Source: Amnibacterium kyonggiense
GTDB lineage: Bacteria > Actinomycetota > Actinomycetes > Actinomycetales > Microbacteriaceae
Direction of reading: 5' to 3'
DNA: 64,000 nt
NCBI RefSeq assembly: GCF_004364555.1
Contig: NZ_SOAM01000003.1
Span: forward strand, 248,001 to 312,000
Below, piece by piece: positions 26,678 through 28,509 of this stretch; the first letter of the stretch is position 1; every line of letters begins with the position of its first letter. A model generated the notes under the pieces. The model was not told where the DNA came from and searched no databases. It saw nothing but the letters and a program-made list of their open reading frames with translations. The position numbers and the translations under genes were made by a program.

Positions 26678-27130
26678 ATGGACGGAGCCCCTGACCTCGT
26701 CGCCGCACTCGCGGCGCTGCGGTCGGTCGAGCCCCGGTTCTGGTCGTCCTCGGCGGACGAGCTGATCGCCGATGCGCGGCTCGTGGAGGACCTCGGGCGG
26801 CTCGTCGACCGACTCCGGATCGACGTCGCCGCCGAGCTCGAGCGTCGCTCCCGCCCCGCGCTCGGCGCGGAGGGACTGGCCTTCGTCTCGGGCGCCCGCG
26901 ACGGCGTCGAGCTGGTCCAGCACGTCGCCCGGATCAGCCACCGCGAGGCCGGCCGCCGGGTCGGCCTCGGCACCGCCGTCGCTCCGCGGACCGGCCTCCG
27001 GGGCGAGACCCTCCCGGGCCGGCTCCCCGCCGTCGCCGATGCGCTGGCCGCCGGCGGCGGTCAGCCGTCCTCGCGCACGACCCCCGATGCACGGAATCGC
27101 TGCTGCGCGCCCTGCTTGCTGAGCCCGTAG
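26678..27130 (+). pseudogene. Truncated DUF222/HNH-endonuclease-family gene (N-terminal remnant)
   Basis: The frame from ATG 26678 encodes about 125 residues like the start of actinobacterial DUF222 (13E12-type) proteins: LVAALAALRSVEPRFW, then LRIDVAAELERRS, and HREAGRRVGLGTA up to ADALAAGGG at about 27058. Full proteins run 400-500 residues and usually end in an HNH nuclease; here similarity stops and the frame runs into the antisense HTH gene before a TAG at 27130. No HNH part is seen nearby. Probably a remnant, with its end removed by deletion. Confidence 0.6.
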
Positions 27131-27312
27131 AGCGCGCCGATCGCCTTCCACGTCGCTCCCTCGGACCGGGCGCTGCGGACCGCCTCGGCCTCGAGGGACT
27201 CCAGCTCCTCGCGCGCGGCGCGCACCGCGTCGAGCCGGCGGAGCGGGTCCGGGATCTGCCGCAGCGCCTCCACGCCGCGCTCGAAGCGCTTGCGCTCGGT
27301 CCCCTCGCTCAC
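27061..27312 (-). CDS. Small helix-turn-helix protein
   Basis: 83 residues, entirely alpha-helical. An N-terminal charged helical half (GVEALRQIPDPLRRLDAVRAAREELE) leads to a helix-turn-helix-like segment SEGATWKAIGALYGLSKQGAQQRF. Such small proteins likely bind DNA, but the target is unknown. GTG 27312 is leaderless: TAGCCT (plus 27319-27324) lies six bases away, with TTGACG (27341-27346) as -35. It overlaps the 3' end of the DUF222 remnant in antisense. Confidence 0.7.
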   Translation of the reverse strand: MSEGTERKRFERGVEALRQIPDPLRRLDAVRAAREELESLEAEAVRSARSEGATWKAIGALYGLSKQGAQQRFRASGVVREDG

Positions 27313-27318
27313 GGGACG

Positions 27319-27346
27319 AGGCTACTCAGCGGACCGATTCCGTCAA
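27319..27346 (-). promoter_or_regulatory. Promoter of the small HTH gene
   Basis: On the minus strand, TTGACG (plus 27341-27346), a 16-base spacer and TAGCCT (27319-27324) lead to GTG 27312 six bases on. Consensus-like and consistent with a leaderless mRNA. It is back to back with the promoter at 27359-27387. Confidence 0.6.
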
Positions 27347-27358
27347 CCGAGTGTTGCC

Positions 27359-27387
27359 TTGCCGGTCAAGAGATCGTTGACTACGCT
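27359..27387 (+). promoter_or_regulatory. Promoter of the lysine-rich peptide gene
   Basis: TTGCCG (27359-27364), 17 bases, and TACGCT (27382-27387). Transcription should start near 27394, giving a leader of about 40 bases that contains a short hairpin CCCGAG/CTCGGG and the ribosome binding site. Confidence 0.5.
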
Positions 27388-27432
27388 CTCCGCATCCCGA
27401 GACTCGGGCGGGGACGACGGAGGGAGGCGACC

Positions 27433-27492
27433 ATGGCGAAGAAGAAGGACAAGAAGAAGGACAAGAAGTCCAAGAAGAAGGGCAAGAAGTAG
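27433..27492 (+). CDS. 19-residue lysine-rich peptide
   Basis: ATG 27433 to TAG 27492 encodes MAKKKDKKKDKKSKKKGKK: 13 of 19 residues are Lys, every Lys codon is AAG, and all others are Ala, Asp, Ser, Gly or Met. The start has a strong ribosome binding site (GGAGGGAGG, 5-12 bases upstream), a promoter at 27359-27387 and a terminator hairpin at 27507-27544, so it looks like a real transcription unit despite its size. A highly basic peptide may bind nucleic acid, polyphosphate or ribosome; function is unknown. The 5'-3' exonuclease gene starts 90 bases downstream. Confidence 0.65.
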   Translation: MAKKKDKKKDKKSKKKGKK

Positions 27493-27506
27493 TCGTGCCC
27501 CAGGTC

Positions 27507-27544
27507 CGCACCCGCCGTGCCCGCAGTCGCGGGCGGCGGGTGCG
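27507..27544 (+). terminator. Hairpin terminator after the lysine-rich peptide gene
   Basis: CGCACCCGCCG (27507-27517) pairs perfectly with CGGCGGGTGCG (27534-27544), and an inner CCCGC/GCGGG pair with loop AGTC extends it. It lies 14 bases after the peptide stop and before the exonuclease gene. Confidence 0.65.
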
Positions 27545-27582: not shown

Positions 27583-28509
27583 ATGACCGACCGGCGCCTC
27601 ATGCTCCTCGACACCGCCGCCCTGTACTTCCGAGCCTTCCACGGCATGCCCGACACGGTGCAGGCGCCCGACGGCACGCCGATCAACGCGGTCCGCGGGC
27701 TCCTCGACATCATCGGCCGGCTCGTCGGCGAGTTCGCACCCACCGACCTCGCCGCGTGCTGGGACGACGCCTGGCGCCCCCGCTGGCGCGTCGAGCTCGT
27801 CCCCTCCTACAAGGCGCACCGGGTCGAGCAGGCGGGCGACGCGACGCATCCGGACGTCGAGGTCGTCCCGGAGGCGCTCACCACGCAGATCCCGATCGTG
27901 CGGGAGGTGCTCGAGGCGCTCGGCATCGCGGCGATCGGCGCGCCGGACCACGAGGCCGACGACGTGATCGGCACGCTCGCGGCGACGGCCTCCATGCCGG
28001 TCGACGTGGTGACGAGCGACCGCGACCTGTTCCAGGTCGTCGACGACGCCCGGCACGTGCGCGTCATCTCGACGGCGCGCGGGATGAGCAACCTGGAGGT
28101 CGTCACCGACGAGGTGCTCCGCGCGAAGTACGGGGTGAGCGCGGCGCAGTACCCGGACTTCGCGACCCTGCGCGGCGACACCTCCGACGGCCTGCCGGGC
28201 GTCGCGGGCATCGGCGAGAAGACCGCGGCCTCCCTGCTCTCGCGCTTCGACGACCTCGACGGCGTGTTCCAGGCGGCGCGCACGATGGGCAGCGGCCTCT
28301 CTGCCGGCCAGGCCGCGAAGCTGCGAGACGGCGAGGAGTACGCGCGCCGCGCCCTGCCCGCGGTCCGCGTCGTCCGGGACCTCGACCTGCCGGACGTCGA
28401 CACGACGATCCGGCTGACGGACGAGCGACGAGCGACGGCCGTCGCCCTCAAGGAGCGGTACGGCCTCGGCGGCTCGATGGACCGGGCGCTCGCCGCACTC
28501 GGCGCCTGA
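27583..28509 (+). CDS. 5'-3' exonuclease (DNA polymerase I-type N-terminal domain)
   Basis: 308 residues, close to the usual length of stand-alone 5'-3' exonucleases. N-terminal LMLLDTAALYFRAFH, the helical-arch segment PSYKAHR, the acidic DHEADDVIGTLA cluster and VDVVTSDRDLFQVV metal ligands, and the H3TH segment TSDGLPGVAGIGEKTAASLL. It should trim 5' ends and flaps of DNA in repair. CGGAGG precedes ATG 27583, which is preferred to an earlier in-frame start that would lie in the terminator region. Convergent with the UbiB-like gene. Confidence 0.9.
   Translation: MTDRRLMLLDTAALYFRAFHGMPDTVQAPDGTPINAVRGLLDIIGRLVGEFAPTDLAACWDDAWRPRWRVELVPSYKAHRVEQAGDATHPDVEVVPEALTTQIPIVREVLEALGIAAIGAPDHEADDVIGTLAATASMPVDVVTSDRDLFQVVDDARHVRVISTARGMSNLEVVTDEVLRAKYGVSAAQYPDFATLRGDTSDGLPGVAGIGEKTAASLLSRFDDLDGVFQAARTMGSGLSAGQAAKLRDGEEYARRALPAVRVVRDLDLPDVDTTIRLTDERRATAVALKERYGLGGSMDRALAALGA

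Follow-up and report, generated by a model that had tools for sequence, protein, structure and literature searches.

A conserved polylysine microprotein gene and its divergent ClpC2/RelI-type HTH partner: a candidate regulatory module in Amnibacterium kyonggiense and other Actinomycetota

The mycobacterial autorepressor ClpC2 (Rv2667) has an operator, CGTCAAC-n5-GTTGACG, which is reported to be bound by ClpC2 in EMSA, to be repeated in many actinobacteria, and to overlap the -35 and -10 elements of a leaderless transcript (PMC10030653). RelI, the antitoxin of the RelS-RelI system (Rv2664, PDB 9SDC), is a short HTH protein which pairs in an operon with a 78-aa RNase toxin; the paper that describes it found no sign that it binds DNA, nor any upstream inverted repeats (PMC13284704). 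The lysine-repeat tails of actinobacterial TopA and HupB are described as Lys-rich, H1-like and linked to DNA binding (PMC7398561).

The locus described here lies in a 64,000-nucleotide stretch (the window) of the 3.71 Mb genome of Amnibacterium kyonggiense, a member of the Microbacteriaceae near the named records Amnibacterium setariae and Amnibacterium sp. CER49. As in ClpC2, a repeated operator lies over the -35 and -10 elements of a leaderless-looking transcript, but the HTH protein found here has no Clp-like C-terminal domain, and its partner is a polylysine peptide encoded by a gene of its own. The protein is short, as is RelI; however, its partner is a divergent peptide of 15–22 aa, with no RelS gene in the same operon. 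Whereas TopA and HupB carry their Lys-rich tails on folded proteins (PMC7398561), the tail-like sequence is here the whole protein. CrsL (PMC12709188) was also considered as a relative and rejected. With moderate confidence, we interpret the locus as an autoregulated two-gene module: a repressor of the ClpC2 type would control a polycationic microprotein, whose target would be nucleic acid or polyphosphate. The repressor and operator type would be of a kind already known, and the effector is apparently undescribed, no account of such a polylysine effector having been found in the open-access literature searched. The features of the locus are collected in Table 1.

Table 1. Features of the polylysine locus, in window positions.
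Feature	Positions	Strand	Basis or remark
Small HTH protein, 83 aa, GTG start; proposed repressor	27061-27312	-	Divergent partner conserved; profile matches; AlphaFold2
-10-like TAGCCT of HTH gene	27319-27324	-	6 nt upstream of GTG; leaderless-looking
Operator 1, GTCAAC-CGAGT-GTTGCC, 1 mismatch	27342-27358	.	Also gives -35-like TTGAC of HTH gene
Originally predicted -35/-10, TTGCCG (27359) -17- TACGCT (27387)	27359-27387	+	Overlaps operator 2
Operator 2, GTCAAG-AGATC-GTTGAC, 1 mismatch	27365-27381	.	Starts exactly 23 bp from operator 1
Shine-Dalgarno GGAGGGAGG	27419-27427	+	5 nt upstream of ATG; read directly in sequence
Polylysine microprotein, 19 aa + TAG	27433-27492	+	ORF translation; relatives in other genomes
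G+C hairpin, presumed terminator, no T tract	27507-27544	+	After stop; folding vs shuffles
5'-3' exonuclease, co-directional neighbour, outside conserved module	27583-28509	+	PF02739 4e-42, PF01367 3.6e-18

The polylysine ORF and its surroundings

Translation of the ORF gives MAKKKDKKKDKKSKKKGKK followed by a TAG stop, with Lys at 13 of the 19 positions and AAG as the only Lys codon, exactly as the original prediction had read it. The exclusive use of AAG is unremarkable, because five neighbouring genes use 28 AAG and 0 AAA codons and the GC content of the window is 74%. Within the 64 kb window, no second ORF of 12–40 aa has a Lys content of 35% or more, and 60 dinucleotide shuffles of the window gave no such ORF at all. 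The ribosome binding site that had been proposed is likewise present, and SD-like purine-rich stretches also precede the polylysine ORFs of relatives. Since the ORF is very short and of low complexity, a chance origin has to be weighed, but the shuffles speak against it and it is refuted by the conservation of the SD, the stop and the operators across two classes, which leaves it a practically negligible probability. The frame recurs in close relatives, a point on which the original prediction had staked its claim of a gene rather than chance, and on this sequence evidence the ORF is a real, conserved gene. It is easily overlooked by annotation, and the expectation that it is too short for most gene finders was borne out.

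The signals proposed to bracket the frame fared less well. Of the perfect terminator hairpin that had been claimed, the hairpin stands (z -3.05 for the first 70 nt, with 2 of 100 shuffles as good; z -1.93 for the 96-nt region), and in 12 of 15 loci no more than 5 shuffles in 100 matched the fold after the stop; as a terminator it is presumed, as there is no T tract and a terminator scan detected none. The -35/-10 pair with 17-base spacing proved to be the weakest part of the reading: TTGCCG/TACGCT was not recovered by a sigma-70 scan, the pair recurs only in the closest relative (G004), TACGCT is present only in G004 and the own genome (G000), and the pair overlaps the palindromes which are the conserved element proper. 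Because both scans were empty, the originally predicted promoter and terminator are to be taken as readings rather than detections. No promoter common to the family was found on the polylysine side among the 14 HTH loci with a Lys-rich gene, and an Rfam search of the window at the gathering threshold gave 0 matches.

A short ORF rich in Lys codons, with a hairpin after its stop, could also represent a leader peptide sensing lysyl-tRNA by ribosome-mediated attenuation, with the hairpin as terminator. This is highly improbable, as the downstream genes differ by genome (exonuclease, CYTH-CHAD, dodecin, or no Pfam match), the next called gene in G001 is convergent, there is no lysine gene among the scanned downstream genes, and a 75-aa protein stands in the peptide's place in G025.

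The original prediction had tentatively linked the peptide to the neighbouring exonuclease, beside which short Lys-rich ORFs were to be sought in related genomes. Among the 30 exonuclease loci read (out of 36 genomes matched), a Lys-rich ORF occurs in the flanks of only two, viz. those of the own genome and of its nearest relative G004 (peptide MAKKSKKDKKKGKKKGKK), and it is absent from the flanks of the other 28. The association is therefore local, holding for 2 of the 5 peptide-bearing Amnibacterium; in three further members of the genus (G001, G002 and G006) the polylysine ORF is located elsewhere, away from the exonuclease, which was rejected as the partner. What is conserved is a divergent HTH protein together with operators, both of which the original prediction had missed, and the true partner of the polylysine peptide appears to be this 83-residue HTH protein and not the exonuclease. 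The neighbours of the module in the window are a beta-lactamase-family protein and the exonuclease. One further DNA match within the own genome, L002, was dropped as a chance match due to G+C richness.

The divergent HTH protein and the tandem operators

At six loci, representing all mini-ORF genomes of the family sample except G023, the polylysine ORF is divergent from the same HTH protein of 81–94 aa, in which the core TWKxIGxxYGLSKQGAQQRF is nearly invariant. A profile search of the PDB with this protein matched RelI (9sdc, E 5.7e-10) and, weakly, the N-terminal part of Rv2667/ClpC2 (8ada, E 0.0042), and by this similarity of the HTH region it belongs with the ClpC2/RelI-type HTH proteins; Pfam gave HTH matches below threshold only. 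The AlphaFold2 model (mean pLDDT 88.3) has helices at residues 3-18, 23-50, 55-61 and 66-74. Fold comparison of the model gave weak HTH-like matches, the best being DosR (Z 5.9 over 47 residues) followed by Fis (Z 5 to 5.6), which prove nothing alone, and Foldseek returned no match at E<=0.001; that RelI 9SDC is not among the matches listed carries no weight. The protein is not a ClpC2, because at 83 aa it ends soon after the HTH and the ClpC-like C-terminal (cyclomarin-binding) domain is absent. We propose that it is a stand-alone distant relative of RelI and of the ClpC2 N-terminal region, probably acting as a repressor.

The intergenic region contains copies of a 17-bp palindrome, GTCAAC-N5-GTTGAC, mismatches being counted over its 12 palindrome bases. 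Two or three copies are present in all 14 loci that have both the HTH protein and a Lys-rich gene; the spacing from the first copy to the second is 23 bp in every one of them, and two third copies follow at 21-22 bp. Exact copies occur in G835 and G943, and the two window copies, with one mismatch each, overlap the promoter as is described for ClpC2. In the same 14 loci, TANNNT is found 6-8 nt upstream of a start codon, and in 11 of them the operator TTGAC can serve as the -35 of the HTH gene with a 15-16-nt spacer to TANNNT. The own genome has 6 sites with no more than one mismatch, versus 5 for a reversed control; single-mismatch sites are thus near the control level genome-wide and it is the paired sites that mark this locus. 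The sequence evidence and the analogy with ClpC2 give good support to regulation by a repressor of this stand-alone ClpC2 type, and published ClpC2 biochemistry suggests that the HTH protein would bind these operators and repress.

Distribution of the two genes among genomes

Matches to the HTH protein (10 of 299 genomes, 8 loci, 2 of 42 genomes and 7 of 249 genomes) came from 20 different genomes in total. In 13 of these the HTH gene has a divergent polylysine mini-ORF, one (G025) has a 75-aa protein, and six have neither. A divergent Lys-rich gene is present in 14 of 15 genomes with tandem operators versus 0 of 5 without, for which the Fisher P of 0.0004 is only indicative, because the genomes are related and not independent. 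The six genomes without a Lys-rich gene are G984 (one operator), G895 (two operators), and G342, G174, G230 and G270; these last four, counted among the five without tandem operators, are weak distant HTH matches in open frames of 163-282 aa with no tandem operators and no Lys ORF. In G895 the HTH protein and tandem operators (L143:1367-1406) stand without a Lys-rich ORF. The locus L112 has a single perfect operator (2482-2498) and an HTH protein (2521-2772), with no Lys-rich gene nearby. The polylysine ORFs of the 13 HTH loci have SD-like sites and vary in length in frame.

When the double-operator pattern alone was used in 396 genomes of the phylum, it matched the own genome, G603 and G638. 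The G638 locus, from another class and found blind by its operator, has both genes, viz. the peptide MAKKKDKKGKKGKKKK and an HTH protein with IGALYGLTKQGAQQRF. The G603 match (L131 ~1490-1600) is a minisatellite of 23-bp units with no HTH and no Lys ORF, and was rejected.

In the family sample of 398 genomes, polylysine mini-ORFs were found in seven, viz. G000, G001, G002, G004, G006, G355 (Naasia lichenicola) and G023, a count which leaves out Lys-rich frames of 63 aa (L042) and 30 aa (L049). Other matches to the polylysine pattern in this sample were parts of longer or low-complexity frames and were dropped. Two of the seven genus members, G003 and G005 (95% and 84% complete), gave no polylysine match in the family-wide search and no HTH match. 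The HTH/polylysine pair is thus patchy, and its genomic place changes between Amnibacterium species. A phage or plasmid origin was considered and rejected: phages and plasmids gave no HTH match, and IMG/VR contained neither the operator pair nor the polylysine pattern; there was one weak viral HTH match, outside the 20 genomes, which had neither operators nor polylysine.

A toxin-antitoxin-like pair, in which the polycation would inhibit growth by binding ribosomes or nucleic acid and the HTH protein would neutralise it as RelI does RelS, besides repressing it, draws on this patchiness and changing genomic place and on the homology of the HTH protein to the antitoxin RelI, described as such in PMC13284704. 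We consider it unlikely, because the genes are divergent and form no operon, the partner is not a RelS-like enzyme, polylysine mini-ORFs occur in six genomes with this HTH protein not nearby, and two of these genomes (G023 and G875) have no HTH match genome-wide.

Peptide composition, proposed mechanism and orphan copies

The 18 peptides compared are 15-22 aa long, with 60-75% Lys and a net side-chain charge of +9 to +15, the Lys-rich, low-complexity, disordered composition of H1-like sequences. Besides Lys they contain D, G, A, S, N and a single V, with no hydrophobics beyond M/A and that V. The longest Lys runs sum to 70 versus 118.8 expected from shuffled order, and 0 of 5000 shuffles were as low, the sequences being related; spacers cap the Lys runs, and the regular D/G/S spacing may ease translation. 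In G025 (L186:4892-5119) a 75-aa Lys/Ala-rich, histone H1-like protein replaces the peptide, with the same tandem operators and a divergent HTH protein.

The coding family, the divergent pairing and the operators can be read directly from the DNA. In the mechanism which we propose, the HTH protein would bind the tandem GTCAAC-N5-GTTGAC operators, which lie between the two genes with a phasing of 23 bp, and would repress its own leaderless transcript together with the divergent microprotein gene. A signal would lift the repression, and the cell would then make a disordered polycation of 15-22 residues and 60-75% lysine. This would most likely bind a cellular polyanion, either nucleoid DNA/RNA or polyphosphate, because it has almost no hydrophobic residues and no fold. 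The choice of target and any stress role are suggested by chemistry and neighbours, viz. the make-up of the peptide, the H1-like protein that takes its place in G025, and the adjacent genes. Against this reading count the G895 locus, which has HTH and tandem operators and lacks a Lys-rich ORF; the lack of DNA-binding evidence for RelI, the closest solved relative, in its own paper (PMC13284704); and the lack of a shared polylysine-side promoter along with the HTH-less mini-ORFs in six genomes.

Tight linkage and shared operators would also suit a peptide that binds the HTH protein as an anti-repressor or feedback ligand and so tunes its own control. However, the peptides drift in sequence but not in composition, a pattern that fits a role for charge better than one for a specific interface, and orphan polylysine copies exist, so that we hold this to be quite unlikely. 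A secreted or cell-killing cationic peptide, for which the high positive charge could be cited, is very unlikely, as there is no signal-peptide-like or amphipathic pattern and apparently no conserved export gene among the neighbours.

Returning to the two-gene module, it would imply that a protein of 15-22 residues, almost of a single amino acid, can be a conserved and specifically regulated gene. It would also add to the ClpC2/RelI family a regulator that stands alone and whose operator can be predicted, so that a DNA pattern suffices to find the module. Should the peptide prove to condense nucleic acid or polyphosphate, it would in our judgement be about the smallest chromatin-like bacterial protein. 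More tentatively, and at somewhat less than even probability, the near-pure-lysine microproteins of Actinomycetota may form an undescribed class of ‘free histone tails’ acting as switchable counter-ions of nucleic acid or polyphosphate. One branch of the class would have its own stand-alone repressor of the ClpC2 type along with the phased tandem operators, and another branch a copy linked to lsr2.

Among the pattern matches read, polylysine mini-ORFs without this HTH protein were counted in six genomes (G023, G875, G899, G908, G889 and G998), and the HTH is therefore not required for the peptide. Four of these (G875, G899, G908 and G889) are of one genus, with the mini-ORF in 4 of 4 species, and in all four the DNA upstream of it aligns with an opposite-strand lsr2 start; Pfam confirmed Lsr2 (PF11774 2e-22) in both proteins scanned. 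The lsr2 paralogue divergent from the polylysine mini-ORF lies at L176:4412-4942 and L179:4358-4852. In G006 and G355, of two genera, the polylysine ORF has a CYTH-CHAD gene on its downstream side (L058:2961-4487 and L059:3288-4874), and CHAD domains have been reported as polyphosphate binders (PMC6537752). These neighbours point to polyanions, although such hints are few (lsr2 in one genus, CHAD in two genomes), and with the H1-like replacement they make the nucleic-acid or polyphosphate idea plausible. In G023 (L060:5305-6006), a different HTH-like protein, recognised by eye, with a long Lys/Arg-rich tail lies beside the HTH-less polylysine ORF. In G998 (L191:3053-3160), a repeat-like KKKKD peptide of 35 aa, preceded by a strong SD, is located downstream of a ferritin-like frame, also named by eye.
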